From Klebsiella pneumoniae (GTDB taxonomy: Bacteria; Pseudomonadota; Gammaproteobacteria; Pseudomonadales; UBA5518), in the NCBI GenBank assembly GCA_945862145.1, contig CAMAXE010000004.1, positions 62,001 through 126,000 of the forward strand: a stretch of 64,000 bases of DNA. The letters are read 5' to 3'. Position 1 is the stretch's first letter. Every line of letters begins with the position of its first letter. Both the position numbers and the translations under genes were made by a program. The notes under the pieces were generated by a model. The model searched no databases. It was not told the DNA's origin and was given only the letters and a program-made list of their open reading frames with translations. This document shows, one piece after another, positions 1 through 62,133 of this stretch.

Positions 1-79
1 GCGTTTCCGCCCGCGCTTCGAGGCTGGACTGCCCATGCCTACACCCGATGTCATCTATTCCTACAGGTATTCACCGTGA
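1..79 (+). CDS. C-terminal end of an upstream gene, possibly TonB-like
   Basis: The frame beginning at base 2 stays open to a TGA at 77-79 and encodes about 25 residues ending RFRPRFEAGLPMPTPDV..YRYSP. The stop overlaps the GTG start of the next gene as GTGA, the same coupling seen further down the operon. The RFRPRF-x-x-G-x-P pattern is reminiscent of the last strands of TonB C-terminal domains in TPR/TonB-type proteins. That likeness rests on very few residues and is an inference. The rest of the gene lies outside the window. Confidence 0.4.
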   Translation, partial: RFRPRFEAGLPMPTPDVIYSYRYSP

Positions 80-1266
80 AACGTCATGCCCCGGTCGGGA
101 TGCTGGTGGTTGTGCTGCTCGCCCCACTGAGCGGCTGCAAGACCACCTCTTCGAGCAGCGAGCCCCCCTCTGCCCAGATGCCCTCCAGCAGTTCCTCATC
201 CTCCAGCAGTTCCTCCTCTTCCAGCAGTTCACCCTCGCAAAGCACACCCCAGTCGGGCAGCCAGTCATCGAGCAAGGCGTCCAGCCCCTCTGCGGGCAGC
301 TCGAGCAGCATGCCGAGCGCAGGCGGCATGCCCGAACAAAGCAACGGGCAACAGGGGCGCCCGGAAGCCAACCAGGGCGGCAGTGCGGGCGAGGCATCTG
401 CTGAGCGCCGCCCCCCGTGGGAGAAGAGCGGTGGTGAGCCCGGCGAAAGCGGAGAAGGCGCGCCACAGGATTCCGTGACCCTCGAAGACAGCGAAGAGAA
501 AAAAGCGGCAGCCGCAGCTGCAGCAGCAGCGGCGCAGGCAGAGGCTTCAGCGGACGCGGACGCAGCCGCCGCGCAGAGCGAATCGGAGGTGCTCGAGGAC
601 GCGGTCGAAGCCATGGCGCGCAAATCCGCCGAGGCCAGTCTCGATGAGGCCGCGGCAAGCGGTGGCGCCACAGCAGCCTCAGCGGGAGAAGCCGCCGCGC
701 CCGGCAGCCTCGAAGAAATCCAGCAGGCAGTTGATGCGGGTGCCAGCCAAGGGGGTGCGGCCGACGGCTCTGGGCGCGAGGCCGAGCGCCTGAACGCCGA
801 ATTGAATGCCTCCCTGGGCCGCTTCGACGGCGCCATGCTCGGCGAGCGCGATCGCGTGCAGGCCAAGGCCGAAGACACCGGCAGCGGCGCCTCGCAGGGC
901 GAGAACGCCGGCATGCTGGATCCGGACGCAGCCTCTGGCGAGGACGGTGCCGAAGGTGACTACGGCCGCGTGAGCGCAGGCCCCTCACCTGAAGCCGGTA
1001 CCGGCAAAGGCGGCGAAGCCACCGCCAACGACAGTTCGAGCGGCAGCGGCATGTCGACCATCGGTGGCGGCTCCGGCCGCCAGGGTGATCACACGCACAC
1101 TGCCGCAACCAACACCCCGCCGCCCGACATACCCGACGGCAGCGACGACGACGTGGTGGCGCGCCAGATCCGCGAGGCCGCCATGAAGGAAAAAGACCCT
1201 GAGCTGCGTGACAAGCTCTGGGACGAGTACCGCAAGTACGTGAACTCCGCAAAGAGGAAGTCCTGA
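76..1266 (+). CDS. Ser/Ala-rich low-complexity lipoprotein
   Basis: This 396-residue protein starts at a GTG and has a lipoprotein signal ending in LSGC, with the lipidated cysteine at residue 21. Lysine follows the cysteine, so sorting to the outer membrane is expected. Residues 25-80 are almost all serine with a run of about 16, and residues near 145-165 form an alanine run. The middle is acidic and Gly/Ala/Glu-rich, and the last 40 residues are charged and probably helical. It looks like an extended spacer carrying a short C-terminal interaction segment. Its TGA overlaps the next ATG (TGATG), so the two lipoproteins are translationally coupled. No family is recognised and the function is unknown. 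Confidence 0.8.
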   Translation: MKRHAPVGMLVVVLLAPLSGCKTTSSSSEPPSAQMPSSSSSSSSSSSSSSSSPSQSTPQSGSQSSSKASSPSAGSSSSMPSAGGMPEQSNGQQGRPEANQGGSAGEASAERRPPWEKSGGEPGESGEGAPQDSVTLEDSEEKKAAAAAAAAAAQAEASADADAAAAQSESEVLEDAVEAMARKSAEASLDEAAASGGATAASAGEAAAPGSLEEIQQAVDAGASQGGAADGSGREAERLNAELNASLGRFDGAMLGERDRVQAKAEDTGSGASQGENAGMLDPDAASGEDGAEGDYGRVSAGPSPEAGTGKGGEATANDSSSGSGMSTIGGGSGRQGDHTHTAATNTPPPDIPDGSDDDVVARQIREAAMKEKDPELRDKLWDEYRKYVNSAKRKS

Positions 1267-2441
1267 TGTCGTCACGCGGCCGAGGCTGTTGGCTCGCCAT
1301 TATCCCGCTCTTCGTGCTGCTGCTCGGCGGCTGTTCCTCCAACACGGTGCGGACCACCGAGGTAACGCCGGTGATCGCCGGCGACCCGGGCATGCCGGAA
1401 GACCAATTGCTCGATGTCGGCGTGCGGCTTTTCGACCCCAACAGCGCCGCTCTCACCGAGGAAGAGATCTTCACGTCACCCGAGATCCGCAAGGCCGAGG
1501 CGCGCTTCATGCCCACGGTCCTCGCCAGCACGCTGCAGAAGAGCGGGCACTGGGGCGCCGTGCGGGTAGCGCCCACCGAAACGGGCGTTAGCGATATCGT
1601 GGTGGCCGGCAAGATACTGGAGTCCACCGGGGAGAAACTCGCGCTGGAAATCAGCGTCTCGGACGCCTCGGGCGCGTCCTGGTACACCAAACAATACGAG
1701 GGTTTCGCGAGCAAATACTCCTACGACGCCAAGGTCGCTCCCGAGCCCTTCCAGGATGTCTACAACCGCATAACCAACGACTTGGCGATCGCCCGAGCCA
1801 AACTGTCCCCCGCCGAGGCGAAGCGCCTGCGGACCATCAGCGAGTTGCGGTTCGCCGAGAGCTTCGCGCCCAAGGCTTTCGGGGGTTTTCTGGACAAGGA
1901 CAAGAACGGGCGTTTCAGCGTGCGCCGGCTTCCCGCCGAGAACGACCCCATGCTCGCGCGCATCCGCAGCATTCGCGAACGCGACAACCTCTTCGTCGAC
2001 ACCCTGCAGGATTACTACAACGGCTTCTCACGGCAGATGTCGAGTCCCTATCAGGACTGGCGCAAGGAGAGCTACACCGAGAGCATCGCCTACCGCGAAC
2101 TGCGCAACCAGGCCACAGGGCGCACCATTGCCGGCGTGGCCTCGATCATTGCCGGCATCGCTGCCCAGACCGGCGACAGCTATGCCACGCGCGCCGCCGG
2201 AACAGTGGGCATCATCGGCGGTGCGGCTATGGTGAAGAGCGGTTTCGACAAGCGTGCGGAGTCGAAGATGCACGCCGAGACGCTGAAGGAACTCGGTGGC
2301 TCGCTGGGCGCCGAGATCGAACCGCAGGTGATCGAACTCGAGGACCACAGCGTGACACTGACCGGCAGCGTGCAGGACCAGTACACCCAGTGGCGCGAAA
2401 TATTGCATGGCATCTATGAGGCCGAGACGGGCAGCATCTGA
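1266..2441 (+). CDS. lipoprotein with a C-terminal hydrophobic glycine-rich segment
   Basis: The protein has 391 residues and a lipobox LGGC with the lipidated cysteine at 23. Residues 35-160 look like an alpha/beta domain (a DVGVRLF strand, then a strand-rich stretch around IVVAGKILES) of the general kind found in envelope lipoproteins of the LpoB/CsgG-like folds; this is a structural guess. Residues about 280-320 contain two short Gly/Ala-rich hydrophobic stretches resembling a glycine zipper. The start is fixed by the TGATG overlap with the preceding lipoprotein gene. A role in anchoring the downstream motor-like complex to the outer membrane is inferred from context only. Confidence 0.75.
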   Translation: MSSRGRGCWLAIIPLFVLLLGGCSSNTVRTTEVTPVIAGDPGMPEDQLLDVGVRLFDPNSAALTEEEIFTSPEIRKAEARFMPTVLASTLQKSGHWGAVRVAPTETGVSDIVVAGKILESTGEKLALEISVSDASGASWYTKQYEGFASKYSYDAKVAPEPFQDVYNRITNDLAIARAKLSPAEAKRLRTISELRFAESFAPKAFGGFLDKDKNGRFSVRRLPAENDPMLARIRSIRERDNLFVDTLQDYYNGFSRQMSSPYQDWRKESYTESIAYRELRNQATGRTIAGVASIIAGIAAQTGDSYATRAAGTVGIIGGAAMVKSGFDKRAESKMHAETLKELGGSLGAEIEPQVIELEDHSVTLTGSVQDQYTQWREILHGIYEAETGSI

Positions 2442-2473: not shown

Positions 2474-4003
2474 ATGTCCAACCATGACTTCGATCGCATC
2501 CAGCCTGCCGCGCTGGATGTAGCTCAAGACCCGATCCCCGCCGCCGTCGTACCGCAGGGGCGCGACGGCAGTTCTGCGCAGGGCGCGGCATTGCTGCTGG
2601 GCGGGCTGGTCCTGCTGGCGGCAGCCGTGGTGTTCGTGCTGCCCGGATATGTCAGCGAAGCAGCGGCGCCGGCGCCCCGCAGCGCGGAAAACCCCGCACC
2701 CGCCGATGCCGCGAAGGCAGCCGACCGAACCGCCCCAGCCGCAACCGCGGGGCAGTCACCGTGGCAACAGGCCCAGGCCGACCGCGAGCGCGCGGAATCC
2801 AAAGCAGCGCTCGACGCCCTGCTCGCCGTGCAGTACGGGCTGCAGGAGCGCAAGGTGGAGAGCTGGGCCCCGACCGAGTTTGCCGCTGCAACGGCAATCG
2901 CCCAGCAAGGAGACGCCGCCTATCGGGAATCGCGTTTCGCGGCGGCGACGGCACTCTACCGGGACGGTGAAGCGCAGCTGAAATCGCTGCGGGATGGCAT
3001 TCCGGCGCGGCTCGAGGCACGTCTGGCGGCAGCCGATGCGGCCTTCGCGGCAGGCGATCAGGCGGCAGCACTGGCAGCCTTCGGTGAGGCCGCTGCCATC
3101 GAGCCCGCTAACGAGCGCGCCCGCAACGGACTTGCGCGGGCGGCCCGCCTCGATCAACTGAATTCCCTGCGGGGTGCGGGAACGGCGCAGGAATCCAGTG
3201 GGCAATTCGGGCCGGCGGCCGCGAGCTACCGCGAGGCGCTGGCGCTGGACGGCGCCTGGGAGCCGGCGCGCGCGGCGCTTGCTGCGGTAGAGGCAAAAAT
3301 CAGTGCCGAGCGCAGCGCGGCGCGCGTGTCTTCTGGCTACAGCGCACTCGCGGCAGGACACCTTGAGGAGGCCCGAGGCGAATTCCGGTCTGCGCTCGCG
3401 CTGGGCGCCGGCACTGCGGCGCGCGAGGGGTTGCAGCAGGCGGAGTTCCAGCTCGGGCAGCAAGGCATCGGCGCCCTGCTGCAGGCCGCTACCGAGGCGC
3501 AGGGCGCGGAGGATTGGAAGCAGGCACTCCAGAGCTACGAGGCCGCGCTCGCCATCGACGCATCCCTCGGTCCGGCACGCTCGGGCCGGGAGCGCGCGCG
3601 CACGCGGCTCGCCCTCGACGAGGCCCTCACCCGGCTGGCGGCACAGCCCGCGAAGCTGGCCAGCGACAACGCACGCAGCGCTGCCGACAAGCTGATCGCC
3701 GCGGCGGCATCCATACCCGATCCCGGTGCGCGCCTGTCGGCCCAGATAGCAAAGGCCCGCAGCGCGCTTGTCTCGATGCGCACCGAGATCCCGGTGCAGC
3801 TCCGCTCCGATGGCACGACCGATGTCATCGTGTTCCGCGTCGGCAGTCTGGGGAGCTTCACTGAAAAGCAGATCGAGCTGCTGCCGGGCGACTATGTAGT
3901 GGTGGGGCGGCGCGATGGCTACCGCGACGTGCGCGTGGAATTCGCGCTGCGACCCGGCGCGCCGCCACCCCCGGTGACCGTGCAATGCGGGCAGAAAATC
4001 TGA
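2474..4003 (+). CDS. membrane-anchored TPR-repeat protein
   Basis: The protein has 509 residues, with a cytoplasmic N-terminus of about 37 residues, one transmembrane helix at 38-60 and a long periplasmic part. Residues 115-400 are alanine-rich helical repeats with TPR-like spacing (for example AAFAAGDQAAALAAFGEAAAIEP and similar units), so it is probably a scaffold. Residues 420-505 are beta-rich and resemble a PEGA-type domain with LLPGDYVVVGRRDGYRDV. The gene lies 32 nt after the lipoprotein gene and its TGA overlaps the next ATG. Partners are probably other products of this operon, which is inferred from gene order. Confidence 0.75.
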   Translation: MSNHDFDRIQPAALDVAQDPIPAAVVPQGRDGSSAQGAALLLGGLVLLAAAVVFVLPGYVSEAAAPAPRSAENPAPADAAKAADRTAPAATAGQSPWQQAQADRERAESKAALDALLAVQYGLQERKVESWAPTEFAAATAIAQQGDAAYRESRFAAATALYRDGEAQLKSLRDGIPARLEARLAAADAAFAAGDQAAALAAFGEAAAIEPANERARNGLARAARLDQLNSLRGAGTAQESSGQFGPAAASYREALALDGAWEPARAALAAVEAKISAERSAARVSSGYSALAAGHLEEARGEFRSALALGAGTAAREGLQQAEFQLGQQGIGALLQAATEAQGAEDWKQALQSYEAALAIDASLGPARSGRERARTRLALDEALTRLAAQPAKLASDNARSAADKLIAAAASIPDPGARLSAQIAKARSALVSMRTEIPVQLRSDGTTDVIVFRVGSLGSFTEKQIELLPGDYVVVGRRDGYRDVRVEFALRPGAPPPPVTVQCGQKI

Positions 4004-6075
4004 TGCCGCAAAACAGCCCGCTTGGCGATGCCGGCGATCACGAGACGCCCATCGCGCCGTTCAGTTATTCGCCCCCCGAGCCGGGTCTGCGTGCCCCCAC
4101 GCGCCGCCGTTTCGGCCGCCGTGAGCTGAGGATCGCCCTGCCCTTGCTGGGCGCCGCACTGTTCGCCGCTTTCCTGCTGAGCGCGCAGGCCGTACGTCTG
4201 CAGCCCACACCGGAAAATGCCCGGGTCGATATCGACGGCGGGTTGCAGCTGGTGCTGGGCGATACCGTCCTGTTGCGTCCGGGACCCTACGTGGCACGGG
4301 CTACGGCCGCGGGCTACTACCCGCTGGAACAGCCCTTCACGGTGCAAGACACCGGCAACGACCCCCTCGTGCTCGATCTGCGCAAACTGCCCGGCAAGCT
4401 GCTGCTCGCAACCCGGCCCGTGGCCGCCACGGCCATGCTCGATGGCGCGCCACTCGGCACGAGCAACGGGGAGCCACTCGACATTCCTGCCGGCACCCAC
4501 CGGCTGCGCGTCACCGCCGACCGCTATCTCCCCGTAGTACAGGACATCCGCATCGAGGGTCTGGGCAAGGAGCAGTCACTGGCACTCACCTTGGCGCCGG
4601 GCTGGGGTGCTTACCGCCTGGAAACCCAACCCCCCGGCGCCAGCGTCGAACTCGATGGCGCCAGCATCGGGACCACACCCACCACCCTCGAACTCATGCA
4701 GGGCCCGCGGCAGTTGCAGCTGCGGCTGGCGAACCACCGGGACGAGAGCGTCTTCGTCGAGGCCAAGGCCGGCGAATCACGCAGCCTCGAGCCGCTTGTG
4801 CTGGTCCGTGCCGATGCGCGGCTGCGCCTCAGCAGCACGCCCACGGGCGCCAGCATCACGCTCGATGGACAGTTCCGCGGCACCGCGCCGCTCGAGATCG
4901 CGCTGGAGTCGGGCAAAGCCCACACGCTGATTGCTTTCAAGGCCGGGCACGAAAAAGCCACACGCCGTTTCACCGCCGTGGCGGGAGAGCAGCAGATGAA
5001 CCTCGCACTGCGCGCGCTGACGGGCGATGTACGGATCGCTGTTACGCCCACCGATGCCGGCATCTACGCCGGAGAACGACTGCTCGCCCGCGGCAGCGCC
5101 ATGCTCACGCTAGCCGCCGGCCCGCAGACGCTCACGCTGCGACGCACGGGCCATGCCGACGAAACGCTGCGCATCACACCGCGCCCGGGTTATCCGCAGG
5201 AGTTCTCCGTCAGGCTTAAAACGCTGGCAGAAAAGCAACAGGCCGCCGTGCGCAAGAGCGTGCGCAGCGCCGCCGGACAGGAGCTCGCACTGATCCAGCC
5301 GGGCAGCTTCCGCATGGGATCTTCGCGACGCGAATCCGGCCGGCGCGCCAACGAGGCCATGCGTGACATCCGCCTGAGGCGGGCCTTCTACATCAGCCTC
5401 ACCGAGGTGAGCAACGCGGAGTTCAGGCAGTTCCGCTCCGGGCATTCCTCCGGCAACTTCAAGGGCAAAAGCCTGAACGGCGATACGCAGCCGGCCACCA
5501 ACCTCTCGTGGACAGACGCTGCGCTCTACTGCAACTGGTTGAGCGAACGCGAGGGTCTGAAACCCTTCTATCGCATCGCAGGCAAGGCCGTGGCGGGTTT
5601 CGAGCCGGGCTCGACGGGCTACCGCTTGCCCACCGAGGCCGAGTGGGCCTGGACTGCGACCGTCAAGGCCGATGGCGCGCTGCTACGCTTCCCGTGGGGT
5701 GATGCGGCGCCGCCGCCGGCCAAGGCGGGGAACTACGCCGACAAGAGCGGCGAGAGCATCCTCGGTGAGATCATCGCCGGCTACAACGACGGCTTCCCGG
5801 TAGCGGCTCCCGTGCGCAGCTTTGCCCCCGACCGGCGTGGCCTGTTCGACCTCGGCGGCAATGCGGCAGAATGGGTGCACGACCTCTACGAGGCCGCACC
5901 CGGTGACGCCGGCACGGCGACCGATCCACTGGGCGCGGACATCGGCGAGTATCACGTCATTCGCGGCGCGAGCTGGCGCAACGGCGGGCTGACGGAACTG
6001 CGGCTGGCATTCCGCGATTACGGCCTCGAGGCGCGCGCCGATGTCGGATTCCGCATCGCGAGGTATCTCAAGTGA
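4003..6075 (+). CDS. membrane-anchored PEGA-repeat protein with inactive SUMF1/FGE-like domain
   Basis: I use the ATG at 4003 (TGATG overlap with the upstream stop) rather than the in-frame ATG at 3985; this gives 690 residues. A transmembrane helix spans 43-64. About five PEGA-like beta repeats cover 66-410 (units such as PPGASVELDGASIGTTP and PTGASITLDGQFRGTAP). Residues 424-690 are a formylglycine-generating-enzyme/SUMF1 fold with the signatures GSFRMGS, YRLPTEAEWAWTA and LGGNAAEWVHD. The position that carries the two catalytic cysteines in true FGE (RGGSxxCxxxxC) reads RGASWRNGGLTEL here, so sulfatase activation is not expected. A binding or structural periplasmic role is likely. Confidence 0.88.
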   Translation: MPQNSPLGDAGDHETPIAPFSYSPPEPGLRAPTRRRFGRRELRIALPLLGAALFAAFLLSAQAVRLQPTPENARVDIDGGLQLVLGDTVLLRPGPYVARATAAGYYPLEQPFTVQDTGNDPLVLDLRKLPGKLLLATRPVAATAMLDGAPLGTSNGEPLDIPAGTHRLRVTADRYLPVVQDIRIEGLGKEQSLALTLAPGWGAYRLETQPPGASVELDGASIGTTPTTLELMQGPRQLQLRLANHRDESVFVEAKAGESRSLEPLVLVRADARLRLSSTPTGASITLDGQFRGTAPLEIALESGKAHTLIAFKAGHEKATRRFTAVAGEQQMNLALRALTGDVRIAVTPTDAGIYAGERLLARGSAMLTLAAGPQTLTLRRTGHADETLRITPRPGYPQEFSVRLKTLAEKQQAAVRKSVRSAAGQELALIQPGSFRMGSSRRESGRRANEAMRDIRLRRAFYISLTEVSNAEFRQFRSGHSSGNFKGKSLNGDTQPATNLSWTDAALYCNWLSEREGLKPFYRIAGKAVAGFEPGSTGYRLPTEAEWAWTATVKADGALLRFPWGDAAPPPAKAGNYADKSGESILGEIIAGYNDGFPVAAPVRSFAPDRRGLFDLGGNAAEWVHDLYEAAPGDAGTATDPLGADIGEYHVIRGASWRNGGLTELRLAFRDYGLEARADVGFRIARYLK

Positions 6076-6344
6076 ACAGATCTGCGCTAACTGCGATGCT
6101 GCTGATGCTCGTTGCCGCTGCGGGTGCCGTGGAGCCGGCAGCCAACCCTGCAGGCGCCACACCAACCAAGCTGCCCACAAGTGCCCAGCGCGCGGCACCG
6201 GCTGCACCGCAGCAGCCCGTCGAGACAGCACCCCCGACAAGCGCAGCCGACGAGGCCGCGGCCACGCGCCGGGCCGGTGAACGCTTCAAACCCTCAGAGA
6301 AAATCTCCGAGGATCTCTCCGTGTCGTTCCCCTCTGACATCTGA
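6072..6344 (+). CDS. small exported protein of unknown function
   Basis: This 90-residue product starts at a GTG overlapping the preceding stop (GTGA). Residues 1-20 form a signal peptide with a cleavable AGAVE-type end. A Pro/Ala/Thr-rich linker follows, and the last 20 residues (KPSEKISEDLSVSFPSDI) look structured and conserved. The gene lies directly before the ExbB-like gene. A small periplasmic accessory with an exposed C-terminal peptide is plausible, but no family is recognised. Confidence 0.65.
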   Translation: MNRSALTAMLLMLVAAAGAVEPAANPAGATPTKLPTSAQRAAPAAPQQPVETAPPTSAADEAAATRRAGERFKPSEKISEDLSVSFPSDI

Positions 6345-6395: not shown

Positions 6396-7208
6396 ATGAA
6401 ACGACTTCTGGCCTCCGAGTTCCTCTTCCAGATATTTGCCCTGCTGTTGTCGCTGATCGTAGTGCACACGGTCTATGTGGCGGTGGTGTGGCCGCGCGCC
6501 GAGGCATACCTGAAGGCGCAGGCCGAGCGCATCGCCTCCGGCGACACCGCGGCACAGCCGCAATCGATGTTCGTGATCCTCAAAGACTACGAGCAGGAGT
6601 CCGAGGTGATCCTGTTTCTCTGGTGCATGGCCATCATGGGATTCAAGGGCGTACAGCTGCGCCACGAGCGCGCGCTGTTCCGCGAACCACTGGTGCAGGT
6701 GCCCGCCGGCACCAGCATTCTTCCCGAGGATGCCCGCGACTTCCTGCGCCCGATCGAGGCGCTGGCGCCGGAATCCCGCGAATGCCTGCTGCCGCGCGCG
6801 CTGGTCGCCGGTCTGCAACGCTTCGCGATCACGCACGGGATCCAGGACGCCTACGGGGCGATCCGTGAGACCTGCGTCACCGAGGGCGAGCGCCTTGACT
6901 CCGAACTTTCCATGATCCGCTACATCGCCTGGGCCATACCGGCGATCGGCTTCATCGGCACCGTGCGCGGCATCGGGATGGCGCTGAGCGAGGCCTACCG
7001 TGCGGTGGAGGGCGATATTGCGGGCGTGACCGACGCACTGGGCGTGGCCTTCAACTCCACGCTAGTGGCGCTGCTGCTCAGCATCATCCTGATGTTCCTG
7101 ATCCACCAGCTGCAGCTGCAGCAGGAACGCCTCTCGCTGAGCGCGCAGTCCTTCTGCGAAGGGCGCTTGCTGCCGCACCTCAAAGTGACGCGGGAGCTGC
7201 GTTCATGA
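6396..7208 (+). CDS. MotA/TolQ/ExbB-type proton channel subunit
   Basis: The protein has 270 residues with four predicted transmembrane segments at about 9-31, 70-88, 176-197 and 217-239. The last two carry the ExbB/TolQ signature: IPAIGFIGTVRGIGMAL (181-197) and AFNSTLVALLLSI (218-230), with Thr222 at the position of the channel-lining threonine. Members of this family form pentamers around a dimer of a single-helix, Asp-bearing partner (ExbD, TolR or MotB) and pass protons to drive periplasmic work. The partners here are probably the two VWA proteins downstream. The stop overlaps the next start (ATGA). The first helix pair is longer than in a minimal ExbB. Confidence 0.85.
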   Translation: MKRLLASEFLFQIFALLLSLIVVHTVYVAVVWPRAEAYLKAQAERIASGDTAAQPQSMFVILKDYEQESEVILFLWCMAIMGFKGVQLRHERALFREPLVQVPAGTSILPEDARDFLRPIEALAPESRECLLPRALVAGLQRFAITHGIQDAYGAIRETCVTEGERLDSELSMIRYIAWAIPAIGFIGTVRGIGMALSEAYRAVEGDIAGVTDALGVAFNSTLVALLLSIILMFLIHQLQLQQERLSLSAQSFCEGRLLPHLKVTRELRS

Positions 7209-8551
7209 GCCTTGCGGTACTCGACCTGAACGATGCCTCACTCACGCTGGGCGACATCGAAGGCATCCGCGCCCGCAGCCCCGGCTTCGCGCTGCTGGCG
7301 GCCGAGGCGCCGCTGCTGGGCGAGGCAGCGCGAAGCAAGGCACGCATCGACCCGCGCAGCACCAACAGCCAGTTCTGGCTGCGGCTGAGTACCGAACCGC
7401 TGCACCACGCGCCGGCCCATACCCGCCACAACGCCGATCTCGGCTATCGCCACCTGCTGCACGTGCATGAGCTGGCGGGACAGCCCGCCGAGCTGTTGCT
7501 GGCAGTGCCGGGAAGTTTCTCGCGCGAGCAACTGGCCATGCTGCTCGGGATCGCCGAACGCTGCCCCTTCCGGGCCTGCGGGTTGGTCGACAGCGCCCTC
7601 GCCGCTGCCAGCACAGAAGCGCTGCCCGGCGCCGCGTTGCACCTCGAGTTGCAACTGCACCAGGCCGTGCTGACACAGATCGAACACGCCGACGGCATGC
7701 TCACCCGCGGAGCCGTGCGCGCGCTGCCGGGCGCCGGGCTGGCGGCGCTGCAGGATCGCTGGGCGCGGCGCGCGGCCGAGTCCTTCATCCGACAGTCGCG
7801 TTTCGACCCGCTTCACGCGGCGGCCACCGAACAACAACTCCATGACCGCCTGCCGGGCTGGCTCGAGGTGCTCGCCGCGCAGGACACCGTCGAGGCGGAA
7901 CTCCAGCAGCAAAGCAATCGCTACCGGGCAACGCTGCGCGCGGGCGAGATGCTGGACGCGGTGCAGTCGATCTACGCCGATCTGCTCGAGGCCCTCGCCC
8001 GCGAGGGCACGAGCGCCACATTGCTGCTCGGCGCCCGGGCCGCGGGCCTGCCGCGTTTTGCCGAGCGTGTGCCCGAGGCACGGACCCTGGCAGACGATGC
8101 CGCCATCCGCGGCGCCCTGCGCCACGCCTCGCTGGTTCGCAGCGAGGAGCGCGCGCTGCGCTTCGTCACGCGCTTGCCTGCCGAGGTAGCGGCCGCAAGC
8201 ATCCACGCGCCCACACCTGTTAAACCCCCGGCGACGCGCGCACTCGCAAGCGCACCCACGCACCTGGTCTCCGGTGGTCGCGCACTGCGTCTGGACACCG
8301 GCACGCTGTATCTGCTCGGCAACGGCGAGGAGGGCTGGGCGCTTTCGCGAAATGCCACCGCCACCAGCCGCTGCCGGCTGGAGCAGGACGGCACGGACTG
8401 GTATGCCTGCGCCGTGCCGGGTGTGCTGCTGCGAATCGACGGATTGCCAGCGCCAGGACGCCTGCGGGTAGTCGCAGGCACACGCCTCGGCATCGAGAGC
8501 GAGGCTCTGGTGTTCGTGACCGAGGTCGCGGCCGACGGCAATGGCGCGTAG
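7205..8551 (+). CDS. soluble protein with degenerate Hsp70/actin-like ATPase fold and C-terminal FHA-like region
   Basis: The protein has 448 residues and no signal peptide or membrane helix, so it is cytoplasmic. Residues 3-15 (LAVLDLNDASLTL) sit where the first phosphate loop of actin/Hsp70 proteins would be. Residues 96-135 (ELLLAVPGSFSREQLAML.., then CGLVDSALAAAS) closely follow the Hsp70 pattern of TVPAxF..xQR....AG, ..NEPTAAAL. The second phosphate loop near 142-165 lacks the usual acidic/glycine motif, so ATP hydrolysis is doubtful. Residues about 355-445 (LYLLGNG..LSRNATATSRCRLEQ..) resemble an FHA sandwich with a recognisable LSR. Both assignments are fold-level inferences. It could regulate motor assembly from the cytoplasm. 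Confidence 0.55.
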   Translation: MSLAVLDLNDASLTLGDIEGIRARSPGFALLAAEAPLLGEAARSKARIDPRSTNSQFWLRLSTEPLHHAPAHTRHNADLGYRHLLHVHELAGQPAELLLAVPGSFSREQLAMLLGIAERCPFRACGLVDSALAAASTEALPGAALHLELQLHQAVLTQIEHADGMLTRGAVRALPGAGLAALQDRWARRAAESFIRQSRFDPLHAAATEQQLHDRLPGWLEVLAAQDTVEAELQQQSNRYRATLRAGEMLDAVQSIYADLLEALAREGTSATLLLGARAAGLPRFAERVPEARTLADDAAIRGALRHASLVRSEERALRFVTRLPAEVAAASIHAPTPVKPPATRALASAPTHLVSGGRALRLDTGTLYLLGNGEEGWALSRNATATSRCRLEQDGTDWYACAVPGVLLRIDGLPAPGRLRVVAGTRLGIESEALVFVTEVAADGNGA

Positions 8552-9629
8552 ACGCGATTTCACGATCTTCAGCCTGTCCTTCCTGGACGTGATGTCCTGT
8601 GGCTTCGGCGCGACCATCCTGCTCTACCTGATCCTCGATCACCGGCAGGAAATGGACACCCGCCAAAAGAGCAGCGCACTGCGCGGCGAGGTCGCGTTCC
8701 TCGAGCGCGAGGTGAAAGAAGGCACCGTGGACCTCGCGGAACTGCGCAACACGCTGTCGATGATCGATGACTCCCTCGCCGAGGCGAACGGACGCTCCCG
8801 CCAGATTCTCGCGCAGATCGCCGAGCGCCGCGACGAGACTGCCGAGGGCAAGGACGACACCCTCGCCCAGCGCGAGCATGTAAACCGCTTGAAGACCGAC
8901 CTCAAGCAACTCGAGGAAAACAACGAGCGCCTGCGCGCCGAGGGCGAGAAGCAGCGCGGGCAGGATGTGCGGCAGTTCCAGGGCGACGGCGACCGCCAAT
9001 ACCTTACCGGTCTGAAGCTCGGCGGACGGCGCATCCTGGTGCTGCTCGACCGTTCCGCGAGCATGCTCGACTACAGCCTGGTGAACGTGATCCGCCTGCG
9101 CAACATGCCCGCCCCGGTGCAGCTGCGCTCGGCCAAGTGGCAACATGCGGTGGCCACGGTCGACTGGCTGAGTACCCAATTGCCGCAGGGCAGCCAATAC
9201 CAGATCTACGGCTTCAACACGCGCGCCGAACCCGTGGTGGAAGGCAGCGCCGGCAAATGGCTGCAAGTCGCCGACCGCGCGCAGTTGAATGGAGCCATCG
9301 CGAAACTGCAGCAACTGGTGCCGGCCGAGGGCACGAGCCTGGCGAACGCCTTCGAGGTGGCAGCAAAGCTCTCGCCTGCACCGGACAATATCTACCTGAT
9401 CACCGACGGCCTGCCCACGCAAGGCGCCACGGGACCCAGCGGCTCCAAGGTGAGCGGACGCGACCGCCAGCGCCTGTTCAACCAGGCCCTGGAGAAGCTG
9501 CCCAAAGGCATACCCGTGAACGTCATCCTGGCGCCCATGGAGGGCGATCCGATGGCCGCCTCAGCGCTCTGGCAGCTGGCGATATCGACGCGGGGTGCAT
9601 TCCTCGCGCCGGCACGGGACTGGCCATGA
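8541..9629 (+). CDS. ExbD/TolR-like helix fused to coiled coil and VWA domain (first copy)
   Basis: The protein has 362 residues. A basic N-terminus MARRR precedes one transmembrane helix at 9-32 that reads LSFLDVMSCGFGATILLYLI. Asp16 in FLDV matches the position of the proton-carrying Asp in ExbD/TolR (PFLDVLLVLL). A coiled coil spans about 40-140. The VWA domain covers 160-360 with an intact metal site: D170-R-S172-A-S174, Thr265 in GTS and Asp289 in ITDG. Positive-inside topology puts the VWA domain in the periplasm. The start overlaps the upstream stop by 11 nt and the stop overlaps the next gene (ATGA). Confidence 0.85.
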   Translation: MARRRDFTIFSLSFLDVMSCGFGATILLYLILDHRQEMDTRQKSSALRGEVAFLEREVKEGTVDLAELRNTLSMIDDSLAEANGRSRQILAQIAERRDETAEGKDDTLAQREHVNRLKTDLKQLEENNERLRAEGEKQRGQDVRQFQGDGDRQYLTGLKLGGRRILVLLDRSASMLDYSLVNVIRLRNMPAPVQLRSAKWQHAVATVDWLSTQLPQGSQYQIYGFNTRAEPVVEGSAGKWLQVADRAQLNGAIAKLQQLVPAEGTSLANAFEVAAKLSPAPDNIYLITDGLPTQGATGPSGSKVSGRDRQRLFNQALEKLPKGIPVNVILAPMEGDPMAASALWQLAISTRGAFLAPARDWP

Positions 9630-10624
9630 GCCGCCGCCGTCGCGCGCCGGAGGAGTTCAGCCTCTCCTTCCTGGACGTGATCTGCTGCGGCTTCGGGGCG
9701 ATCATCCTGCTGTTGATCATCACGCGGGTCTCCGCCCCGGTGGTGCTCGAGGAGAGCACGCGCGATCTGGAGTCGCAGATCGCGGCCCTGCAGGAGCAGC
9801 TGTTCCGGCTCCGCGGCGAGTCGACGGTACTGAACCGCGACCTGACGGCACGACAAGAGCAGCTCTCCGAGATGATCGACAAGGTCGCCCGACTGGAGCG
9901 CGAACTCTCGTCGATCAAAGGCGAGTTCGCCGCCAGCGATACCGACTCCGTGTTGAACTCGCGGCTGGTGGGGCAACTCGAGAAAGCCAGGCAGCGCCTC
10001 AGCGATGAGATGAAACGTCTGCTCGGTGCCCAGGGCGGACGTCGCAACGACGCCATCGGCGGCATACCGGTGGACAGCGAGTACGTGATCTTCATCATCG
10101 ACACGTCCGGGAGCATGTTCAATTACGCGTGGCCGCGGGCCCAGCAGGAGATGATCAACATCCTCGACCTCTACCCGAAGGTGAAGGGGATACAGGTGCT
10201 GGACGACGAAGGCGGCTACATGTTTTCGAGCTACCGCGGACAATGGATTCCCGACACGCCGGCGCGACGCAAGGCGATCATCCAGCGTTTTGCCAGCTGG
10301 AACCCCTACTCCAACAGCAGCCCGGTCGAGGGCATCGTGTCGGCGATCCGCAACTTCTACGAGCCGGGACGCAAGATCAGCCTGTATGTGCTGGGCGACG
10401 AGTTCACCGGCAACTCGATAGAACAGGTGATCGACGTGGTGGACAAGATCAACCGCGAGGGCCCCGAGGGCGAGCGGCTGGTGCGGATCCACGCGATCGG
10501 CTTCCCGACCCAGTTTGCCAATCCGGCCCAATACCAGATCACCGGCATCCGCTTTGCCACCCTGATGCGCGATCTGTCGTGGAAGAACAACGGCACCTTC
10601 GTGGGTCTGAACGACTACCGCTGA
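9626..10624 (+). CDS. ExbD/TolR-like helix fused to coiled coil and VWA-like domain (second copy)
   Basis: I place the start at the ATG overlapping the preceding stop (ATGA), giving 332 residues. Residues 1-10 are basic, and the helix at 11-33 reads FSLSFLDVICCGFGAIILLL with Asp17 in FLDV, nearly the same as the first VWA protein. A coiled coil spans about 44-135. The VWA-like domain has D159-T-S161-G-S163, but the Thr position is replaced (SSPVEG), while an Asp-bearing strand (VLGDEFTG) is kept. The two proteins are divergent outside the helix, so they could form a heterodimer in place of the ExbD dimer. Confidence 0.85.
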   Translation: MSRRRRAPEEFSLSFLDVICCGFGAIILLLIITRVSAPVVLEESTRDLESQIAALQEQLFRLRGESTVLNRDLTARQEQLSEMIDKVARLERELSSIKGEFAASDTDSVLNSRLVGQLEKARQRLSDEMKRLLGAQGGRRNDAIGGIPVDSEYVIFIIDTSGSMFNYAWPRAQQEMINILDLYPKVKGIQVLDDEGGYMFSSYRGQWIPDTPARRKAIIQRFASWNPYSNSSPVEGIVSAIRNFYEPGRKISLYVLGDEFTGNSIEQVIDVVDKINREGPEGERLVRIHAIGFPTQFANPAQYQITGIRFATLMRDLSWKNNGTFVGLNDYR

Positions 10625-10693
10625 ATGCGGGCTTGGATACCCGGCGGGATTGACCCTATGATCTGCTTGTCCTTTGTCCCCGAGCGCGAACGC

Positions 10694-11314
10694 ATGCGCA
10701 CACGATTGCTGCTGTTACTTGTCTGCGTATTGCTGCCGGCCTGCGGGCCGCAGGTCGTGCAGATGAAAGCGCTGAACGAATTTCCCCGCCCGCTGGTCGA
10801 TCCACTGCCGATCCGCGTGGGGCTGCACATCCCGCCCGAGTTCGCCGCCTACACCTACCACGAAAAGCGCCCGGGACCGGCGGGCCAGGAGTGGACCATC
10901 AGCATCGGTCCGCCGCAGGCGCAGGTGTTCCAGGAGATCCTGGGGGCGCTGTTCAGCGGCGTCGATGTGCTGGATTCGCCCACTGCGGGCGGCAGCGGTC
11001 TCGCCGCTGTGATCGTGCCCGGCGTGGCGGAATTCCAGTTCGCGCTGCCCGCCGACACCAAGGCCAAGGTGTTCGAGATCTGGGTCAAATACGATCTTGG
11101 CATCCGCACCGCCAAGGGCGAGGAGATCGGCCACTGGCAGTTCACCGCCTACGGCAAAACCCCCACCGCATTCCTGAAATCCGACGAGGAGGCGATCCGC
11201 GCGGCCACCATCGTTGCACTGCGCGATGCAGGCGCCTCGCTGGTGAGCGGTCTGGAGCGCGACCCCAGGCTGCGCGAATGGCTGGGCGTGGAGCAGCCCG
11301 CCGACACACAGTGA
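10694..11314 (+). CDS. lipoprotein closing the envelope operon
   Basis: The 206-residue form beginning at 10694 is preferred because it starts directly with a type II signal MRTRLLLLLVCVLLPAC, lipidated at Cys17. In-frame ATGs at 10625 and 10658 would bury that signal. The mature part begins with a PLVDPLPIRVGLHIPPEF strand and continues as an alpha/beta domain ending in helices. This is the layout of small envelope lipoproteins of the DUF799/LpoB-like kind, which is a weak resemblance. It sits 69 nt after the second VWA gene and its end lies 2 nt from the convergent peptidase gene. Confidence 0.7.
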   Translation: MRTRLLLLLVCVLLPACGPQVVQMKALNEFPRPLVDPLPIRVGLHIPPEFAAYTYHEKRPGPAGQEWTISIGPPQAQVFQEILGALFSGVDVLDSPTAGGSGLAAVIVPGVAEFQFALPADTKAKVFEIWVKYDLGIRTAKGEEIGHWQFTAYGKTPTAFLKSDEEAIRAATIVALRDAGASLVSGLERDPRLREWLGVEQPADTQ

Positions 11315-60598: not shown

Positions 60599-62133
60599 GG
60601 GCTTCGCAGTTGCTCCCGAAGTTGGTACTTGAGCACCTTGCCGGCCGGATTGCGCGGCATTTCGTCGAGAAAATGGAGCTTGAGCGGCAGCTTGTAGCGG
60701 GCGAGCCGCGCCGTCGCGAATTCGCGCAACTCCGGCAACGTGAGCGCAGCGCCGTTCTTCAGGCGCACCACGGCGGTCACGGCTTCACCCCATTTTTCAT
60801 CGGGCAGCCCGATGACCGCCACCTCGGCAATGGCAGGGTGCTCGTAGAGAACGCCTTCGACCTCTGCCGGATACACGTTCTCGCCGCCCGTGATGACCAT
60901 GTCCCTGACGCGGTCGCAGAGGTACAGGAAACCCTCGCTGTCGAAGTAACCGACGTCGCCGGTGTGAAACCAGCCGGCGGCGTCGATCGCCTCGCGCGTG
61001 GCCTCGGGGCGATTCCAGTAGCCATGCATCACGTTCGGTCCCCGCACGCAGACCTCGCCGCGCTCGCCGTGCGGCAGGGCACGATTTTCTGCATCGACAA
61101 CGCGCACCTCGGCATAGAGTGGCGGCTGGCCCGCCGAGCCCGGCTTGCTCTCGATCCAGCGGCTCCCGAGGAACGTGGCGAAGGGCGCGGTCTCGGTGAG
61201 ACCGTAGCCCTGGCAGAGCTTCACGTCGCGGGCCTTGTAGATCTGGATCAGGGCTTCCGGCACCGGCGCGCCTCCGCCGCACAACACCTCGATGCTGGAG
61301 AGGTCGGTGCTCGCGAAATCAGGATGCTGCGCCATGAACAGGAACATCGCCGGCGCACCGAACATCGCCTGTGCGCGGTGCTCCGCGATCGCCGCAAGCA
61401 CTGCGCCGGCATCGAAATTGCGAAGCAGGATGACGTGACCGCCCGTCTGGAGAGTGAGCATGGTGGTGACATTCAGGCCGCCGATGTGGAACAGCGGCGC
61501 GCAACTGAGGCTCACCTCGACGGCGAGGTTCTCCGGGCTGAAACGCGAGTTCACGTTGTTCCAGAACAGGTTGCCGTGCGTGAGCATGGCGCCCTTGGGG
61601 CGACCGGTGGTGCCGGAGGTGTACATGATGAGGGCCGTGCCCTGCTCGCCTACGCTCTCCGGCTCGGCAACGGCTACGGCGTCCGCCACGAAATCTCTCT
61701 CCTCGATCCATCCGGGAGACGGGCTCTCGACAGCCACGAAATTCCGGCAATGCAGCATCGGGCGGATGCCGTCTGCCACGGGGATGCGCAGATCGTCGAC
61801 GAGCAGCGTGTGCACGCCGGCATCGTTCAGGATGAATTCGAGCTCGGGACCGGTCAGGCGGAAATTGATCGGCACGAAGATCGCGCCGATCACCGCCGCG
61901 GCATACATCGTCTCGAGAAAAACCGGGTGGTTGGCACCGAGGAAAGCAACCCGATCGCCGCGGTTGACGCCGGCGCGCCGCAGAGCACCGGCCATGAGGC
62001 GAATGCGCCGCCCGAAGCCGGCATAGTCGAGCGTGGCGCCCTCAAAACTCAGCGCGGGCAGCGCCGGGCTAAGCGCGCAGCGCCTCAAGATCATGGTGCC
62101 GAGGCCGATATCCGGCTGCGTGGTGTAGGGCAT
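60595..62133 (-). CDS. long-chain-type acyl-CoA ligase (AMP-forming)
   Basis: The ATG at 62133 gives 512 residues. The AMP-binding loop is LIMYTSGTTGRPKGAML, the core motif GYGLTETAPF, and the hinge/ligase motif GWFHTGDVGYFD with the catalytic lysine near NPAGKVLKY. It activates a carboxylic acid with ATP and CoA. It is coupled to corA. Confidence 0.92.
   Translation of the reverse strand: MPYTTQPDIGLGTMILRRCALSPALPALSFEGATLDYAGFGRRIRLMAGALRRAGVNRGDRVAFLGANHPVFLETMYAAAVIGAIFVPINFRLTGPELEFILNDAGVHTLLVDDLRIPVADGIRPMLHCRNFVAVESPSPGWIEERDFVADAVAVAEPESVGEQGTALIMYTSGTTGRPKGAMLTHGNLFWNNVNSRFSPENLAVEVSLSCAPLFHIGGLNVTTMLTLQTGGHVILLRNFDAGAVLAAIAEHRAQAMFGAPAMFLFMAQHPDFASTDLSSIEVLCGGGAPVPEALIQIYKARDVKLCQGYGLTETAPFATFLGSRWIESKPGSAGQPPLYAEVRVVDAENRALPHGERGEVCVRGPNVMHGYWNRPEATREAIDAAGWFHTGDVGYFDSEGFLYLCDRVRDMVITGGENVYPAEVEGVLYEHPAIAEVAVIGLPDEKWGEAVTAVVRLKNGAALTLPELREFATARLARYKLPLKLHFLDEMPRNPAGKVLKYQLREQLRSP

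Follow-up and report, generated by a model that had tools for sequence, protein, structure and literature searches.

The 64,000-nucleotide stretch analyzed here (the window; positions 62,001–126,000 of contig CAMAXE010000004.1, assembly GCA_945862145.1) encodes two adjacent membrane proteins of VWA type, VWA1 and VWA2, which are probably the axle subunits, in the role of ExbD, TolR or MotB, of an ion-driven motor of the 5:2 type. Each protein carries an invariant Asp in an N-terminal transmembrane (TM) helix, and the reading of these segments as proton helices is well supported because the TolQ/ExbB-like partner encoded beside them keeps both Thr of the proton path and no ExbD or MotB match occurs in the window.

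VWA1 (8541..9629, plus strand; 362 residues) consists of a basic tail, the TM helix with Asp16, a long helical region and a VWA domain (PF13519, 8e-8) that would sit in the periplasm. Its paralogue VWA2 (9626..10624, plus strand; 332 residues), whose start codon overlaps the stop codon of VWA1 (ATGA), has a TM helix with Asp17, a helical region and a VWA-like domain. The N-termini read MARRRDFTIFSLSFLDVMSCGFGATILLYLI in VWA1 and MSRRRRAPEEFSLSFLDVICCGFGAIILLLII in VWA2, and the basic tail with the hydrophobic helix reads LSFLDVMSCGFGATILL and LSFLDVICCGFGAIILL, respectively. The TM helix of VWA1, assigned from hydrophobicity by eye, covers residues 14–32 (8580..8636, plus strand) and includes Asp16 (codon 8586-8588) and Cys20 (codon 8598-8600), and that of VWA2 covers residues 15–33 (9668..9724, plus strand) and includes Asp17 (codon 9674-9676) and Cys21 (codon 9686-9688). 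Both helices show the pattern FLDxxxCGxGA. An earlier note on this DNA, made from the letters alone, had quoted the two helices and called the proteins otherwise divergent; the helices agree exactly with the translated frames, and the proteins share 26% identity over 177 residues (E 5e-13). The DNA pattern encoding FLDV occurs three times in the window versus 0.30 expected, and two of the three occurrences are the helices of VWA1 and VWA2.

The predicted structure of VWA1 by AlphaFold2 (AF2) has a mean predicted local distance difference test score (pLDDT) of 79, and its VWA part resembles 4fx5 with a Z-score of 18.0 (166 residues, root-mean-square deviation (rmsd) 2.4), the N-terminal helix and shaft being barely covered by this comparison. 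The DxSxS motif of VWA1 (D170, S172 and S174; 9048..9062, plus strand), which we take to be the metal-site (metal-ion-dependent adhesion site, MIDAS) motif, is invariant in 20 of 20 sequences, and that of VWA2 (D159, S161 and S163; 10100..10114, plus strand) in 19 of 19, as is the later D258 of VWA2 (19/19). VWA2 itself lies under the Pfam cut-off for VWA_2, and five of the 19 members of its family match VWA_2 at E 0.01. Searches of a phage and a plasmid collection returned no match to VWA2 in either.

Conservation of the TM helices

The helix Asp is present in 103/103 VWA1 rows and 103/103 VWA2 rows (the latter partly selected, as discussed below), so that it does not vary among homologues, a test that had been set beforehand. 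The rows combine genome searches with a scan of named genome contigs (80 loci kept of 569 relatives), four genomes being counted twice. Sequences dropped before counting were G010/L071 and G125/L072, which have no FLD helix, G293, G339, G392 and G408, which are weak matches without the helix, and G348/L243, a cut sequence without the helix. The divergent locus L073 contributes to the residue counts of VWA2 and of the ring protein but not to the profile comparison, the helix-constraint comparison or the pairing and spacing analysis.

A phylum-wide search of 299 genomes revealed a second, distant group of 13 genomes, all from one family and related at phylum level only. FLD is retained there in 12/12 VWA1 and 12/12 VWA2 helices, while in eight of the 12 genomes the helix Cys is replaced by Ser and the CGFGA of VWA2 has become SAFAA. 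FLD is thus more durable than the remaining conserved positions of the helix. Beyond the distant family, one VWA2 (L149) has FID and the divergent L073 has ALD, with the Asp kept in both.

Across the 85 loci with all five genes, eight of 19 helix columns are invariant (98% or more) in VWA1 and eight of 19 in VWA2, and the mean entropy of the helix versus the rest of the protein is 0.50 versus 1.64 in VWA1 and 0.45 versus 1.33 in VWA2. By comparison, invariant columns number 0/20 in the TM anchor of the PEGA/FGE protein and 0/20 in that of the TPR protein, both encoded at the same loci, and 3/21 in the first TM helix of the ring subunit. This bears on whether the N-terminal segment could be a cleaved signal peptide or a lipoprotein signal in which the Asp is incidental. 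The segment does stand at the N-terminus, has basic residues followed by a hydrophobic stretch and contains a Cys; however, its columns do not behave like those of a cleaved leader, and we reject this explanation, which we consider scarcely credible, because constraint so far above that of the remainder of each protein is not expected of a cleaved signal. In addition, the Asp lies close to the start of the hydrophobic stretch, the Cys precedes most of the hydrophobic core, and a single uninterrupted helix spans residues 22 to 101 of the AF2 model of VWA1 (part of it at pLDDT 70-76).

Profile comparison with ExbD/TolR and MotB

Residues 1–50 of each VWA protein were compared by hhalign with ExbD/TolR (34 sequences), MotB (30/31) and five control TM regions. 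The outcome, together with three other points, weighs against an axle role for the two proteins. The probabilities against ExbD/TolR are 1.6% and 3.3%, no better than noise, and those against MotB are 14.9% and 12.8%, only suggestive beside the 23.3% of the known relatives ExbD and MotB and the negative controls of at most 5.5%. Neither protein has an ExbD or MotB Pfam match (PF02472 up to E 0.1), and PF02472 is also absent among the families listed, up to E 0.01, for 20 VWA1 and 19 VWA2 family members. The Pfam scan matched no peptidoglycan-binding domain. Finally, the FLD pattern was one of the two baits of the contig scan, so the VWA2 rows are partly selected for the very residue counted; the VWA1 rows are hardly selected by it, because 100 of the 103 have Met at the position for which the pattern requires Ile or Val.

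The MotB profile alignments are in register with the VWA helices, Asp on Asp. The profile comparison is thus suggestive of a likeness to MotB and is by itself no proof of homology to ExbD, and what supports the proton-helix reading is the invariant Asp together with the Thr pair of the ring protein and the gene context. The match to the ExbD/TolR proton helix drawn in the earlier note is accordingly supported by the context and the Asp and not decided by the hhalign values. Its further claim of an equal distance from a short basic tail is close to what we observe, since the distances are similar, not identical: the VWA Asp is residue 16 or 17, versus residues 19-25 in 34/34 ExbD/TolR proteins of related genomes (starts chosen by script). 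The string PFLDVLLVLL, which it ascribed to ExbD and TolR, was not found in those examined; TolR reads LLDVLLVLLL in the portion of PMC12583513 consulted, and an ExbD of the source genome reads VVPYIDVMLVLLIIFM.

The ring protein and the lack of an ExbD or MotB match nearby

The TolQ/ExbB/MotA-like ring subunit is encoded at 6396..7208 (plus strand; PF01618, 4e-13). Its profile found TolQ among solved structures with a weak E of 0.014, and in this same weak-match alignment Thr189 (6960-6962) and Thr222 (7059-7061) align with T145 and T178 of TolQ; both Thr are present in 95/95 ring-protein rows. According to the excerpts of PMC12583513 and PMC12965293 used here, T145 and T178 of TolQ are in contact with the Asp D23 of TolR. 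The source genome has five ExbD/TolR (PF02472) and two MotB-plug (PF13677) matches, none of which falls in the window (C4:62001-126000), the one locus checked in this respect.

It might be argued that VWA1 and VWA2 bind the side of the ring, as TolA and TonB do and as in the first vWA family of PMC12204202, the axle coming from another protein; the ring could borrow an ExbD from elsewhere, given the five PF02472 matches in the source genome. We rejected such side-binding, which we regard as very unlikely, on the lack of any of these matches in the window and of the S-H-L-S pattern, judged by eye, in helices that carry an invariant Asp and are conserved like a pore element. A second possibility is that no ions flow and the Asp has a structural or assembly function within the ring, the complex being a dead motor kept as a scaffold. 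The neighbouring Hsp70-like protein with its FHA-like domain would suit a scaffold, but the two Asp and the two Thr of the ring are jointly invariant, which would not be required of a dead channel, and we judge this second possibility unlikely. An axle role for VWA1 and VWA2 thus remains the preferred reading. A Zorya (ZorA/ZorB) defence identity was also considered and rejected, since VWA1 and VWA2 gave no ZorB match in a scan of six proteins; the ring protein has a weak match to ZorA (4e-5).

At another site of the source genome (G000:C14:57736-59443), two ring-protein and two ExbD matches stand in tandem, another possible mixed-axle motor.

Possible pairing of VWA1 and VWA2

The two VWA genes occur together in 101 of the 104 loci that have either (four genomes counted twice); each of the three loci with one copy is situated at the end of a contig. 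In the distant family (f225, L231-L257), the helix Cys is Ser in both proteins in eight genomes, Cys in both in four and mixed in none of the 12, a joint change that is possibly a single event. The spacing between the Asp and DxS also covaries between VWA1 and VWA2 (Pearson 0.85, Spearman 0.55; 97/101 pairs, 18 of them distinct, kinship uncorrected), four of the 101 pairs being left out where the script missed the motif. Judged from these sequence comparisons, co-occurrence, joint Cys change and spacing favor a VWA1–VWA2 heterodimer, which is plausible.

The axle could also be a homodimer, VWA1 and VWA2 forming separate 5:2 complexes or alternating in the ring, with the same motor. To our knowledge, the axle of the 5:2 motors studied so far is made of two like proteins, a homodimer, and the lone VWA protein of the divergent L073, which lies outside the 104-locus count, still has the helix (SALDLFASAMGA, LD kept). 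According to PMC9389320, it is not known whether AglQ and AglS each pair with themselves or with one another. The homodimer is nevertheless disfavored by the presence of both copies in 101/104 loci and the start/stop overlap at this locus, by the Cys-to-Ser change in both copies together and by the covarying spacing, and we consider it possible but doubtful.

In L073 (6122-10750), one VWA axle protein is encoded together with a ring protein, an FHA protein, a PP2C phosphatase and a trypsin-like protease with FHA; this locus is perhaps a phospho-regulated, single-VWA version of the motor.

The surrounding gene cluster and its distribution

All genes of the cluster lie on the plus strand. The gene between the ring protein and VWA1 (7205..8551) encodes a protein with the fold of the Hsp70 nucleotide-binding domain and a forkhead-associated (FHA)-like C-terminal domain, which would be cytoplasmic. 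Its AF2 model (mean pLDDT 90) resembles DnaK 2v7y with a Z-score of 29.8 (313 residues, rmsd 2.9), and the protein has no Pfam or NCBIfam match; an FHA Pfam match in the C-terminal domain is found in two of 16 family members, not in that of the window. The nucleotide-binding loops of Hsp70 are the GTT and GGGT motifs. These are not evident by eye in the Hsp70-like protein, which may therefore be a scaffold.

Upstream of the ring gene are encoded a predicted lipoprotein (76..1266; LSGC, Ser-rich), a second predicted lipoprotein (1266..2441; LLGGC), a single-TM TPR-like protein (2474..4003; TPR matches under cut-off), a protein with one TM helix that combines PEGA repeats with an FGE-sulfatase-like domain (3985..6075; PF08308 2e-33, PF03781 1e-36) and a small protein of 90 residues with a signal-like start (6072..6344). 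The best NCBIfam match of the PEGA/FGE protein is GldK, at 89.7 bits under a cut-off of 350. VWA2 is followed by a further predicted lipoprotein (10625..11314; LPAC), whose true start may lie within the frame. The lipoboxes of all three lipoproteins were called by eye against the lipobox consensus.

The order lipoprotein, TPR, PEGA/FGE, ring, Hsp70-like, VWA1, VWA2 and lipoprotein is found in 56 of the 80 scanned loci. Of the 24 that deviate, 16 are truncated at their left side, six have no recognized last lipoprotein despite 3.6 kb or more of sequence there, and L111 and L118 lack the first three cluster genes despite 5.8 kb of sequence. The ring, Hsp70-like, VWA1 and VWA2 genes stand together in 71/80 scanned loci, and the other nine loci start at most 360 bases from their first cluster gene. 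Among more distant loci, the ring gene of L065 (7382-11614) follows VWA2 and does not precede VWA1, and in L068, L069 and L070 the Hsp70-like gene was not recognized. Downstream of the cluster, L116 (11461-12873) encodes an M48 metallopeptidase (PF01435 1e-33), of a single-linkage family present in 57/80 loci (one member scanned); at this position the window has, by eye, a different gene on the opposite strand. L112 (10630-11448) encodes an extra predicted lipoprotein downstream of VWA2, without a Pfam match, whose family is present in 49/80 loci.

The VWA pair or part of it was found in 13 of 55 nearer genomes, in 12 of 185 across the class plus the divergent G143, and in 15 of 299 across the phylum (weak matches dropped), the source genome being counted in all three sets and G019 in two. 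Carriers of the cluster include Microbulbifer and Pseudoalteromonas strains. The scanned locus L115, labeled as a Klebsiella pneumoniae metagenome-assembled genome, has the cluster and the other scanned carriers are mostly of marine type; the assembly is probably mislabeled.

A model for a probable VWA motor

In the mechanism that we propose, a TolQ/ExbB-like pentamer would surround one VWA1 helix and one VWA2 helix, and an ion, probably H+, would bind to Asp16 and Asp17 next to Thr189 and Thr222 of the ring. A helical shaft some 100 residues long, which would measure about 15 nm if it were straight, would pass the rotation on to the VWA heads. Close to the outer membrane, these heads may use their metal-site motif to take hold of lipoproteins or of the PEGA/FGE and TPR proteins encoded in the cluster. 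We tentatively place this heterodimeric axle, with its 5:1:1 composition and built-in asymmetry, within a larger, conserved trans-envelope machine, in which the Hsp70-fold/FHA-like protein would form a cytoplasmic scaffold, the PEGA/FGE, TPR and lipoprotein components would occupy the periplasmic side, and the whole would be a counterpart of GldKLM in layout, not in descent; we put this arrangement at somewhat less than an even chance.

The proton-helix proposal in the earlier note is thus partly supported: what it observed is confirmed, and its interpretation is right in the main part, with the heterodimer unproven. If two different axle proteins are kept, each with an invariant Asp and a conserved Cys one helical turn off, the role of asymmetry in such motors would become directly testable, and the conserved neighbor genes offer specific candidates for the target of the motor.

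Comparison with known motor systems

Our comparison reveals that VWA1, VWA2 and their ring protein share with TolQR and ExbBD the PF01618 ring family, the Thr pair and a lone TM helix that follows a short tail and has an Asp close to its beginning. The differences are that the VWA system has a helical shaft and a VWA domain in place of the small TolR/ExbD domain, two distinct axle proteins, and a helix in which Cys and GxGA are conserved. With respect to MotAB, no profile from outside the family aligns better than the MotB plug, with Asp placed on Asp, whereas VWA1 and VWA2 have no OmpA-like or MotB-plug match. The GldLM motor with GldK, of type IX secretion and gliding, belongs to a different phylum. 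Among NCBIfam families, the PEGA/FGE protein of the window matches GldK best, yet the score is under the cut-off, GldM is not among the matches listed, and the protein of the window contains PEGA repeats. As in the VWA system, GldLM is a motor with a long periplasmic shaft, as described in the passages of PMC9389320 used here. The same passages describe AglRQS of Myxococcus as one ring protein with two MotB-like proteins, each having a conserved Asp, an arrangement like that of the window, whereas AglQ and AglS are described with TolR-like peptidoglycan-binding domains and not VWA domains; in the part of PMC3858216 covered, AglQ D28N is reported to abolish proton conductance.

A motor of this type was predicted in 2025 (PMC12204202, Mol Biol Evol) from TPH-vWA proteins with TolQ-like rings, the homologues sampled being those of an Idiomarina protein. 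Section 8 of that article presents AF3 models of the second vWA family, which are models and not experiments, and states the function of the first vWA family to be unknown. Its main text has no mention of PEGA, Hsp70, forkhead or formylglycine, and neither the surrounding cluster nor the joint Cys-to-Ser change of both helices was found there. Among the matches listed in the literature searched, some of it represented by partial texts, we recognized no second description of a VWA/TolQ-like motor, and the portion of the main text of PMC12505986 covered contains no vWA; the residue names sought in PMC12215075 produced no hit there. The idea of the motor is therefore already in print as a prediction, and the locus in the window is a clear new example, not a new kind. 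Comparison with the TPH-vWA family brought out no difference: every tested feature of that family is found at this locus, namely a TolQ-like gene without tolR/exbD, a heterologous pair of TM-anchored vWA proteins, an Asp in a TolR/ExbD-like helix and a Thr ring, so that the two are identified by features, not by alignment with the Idiomarina protein.

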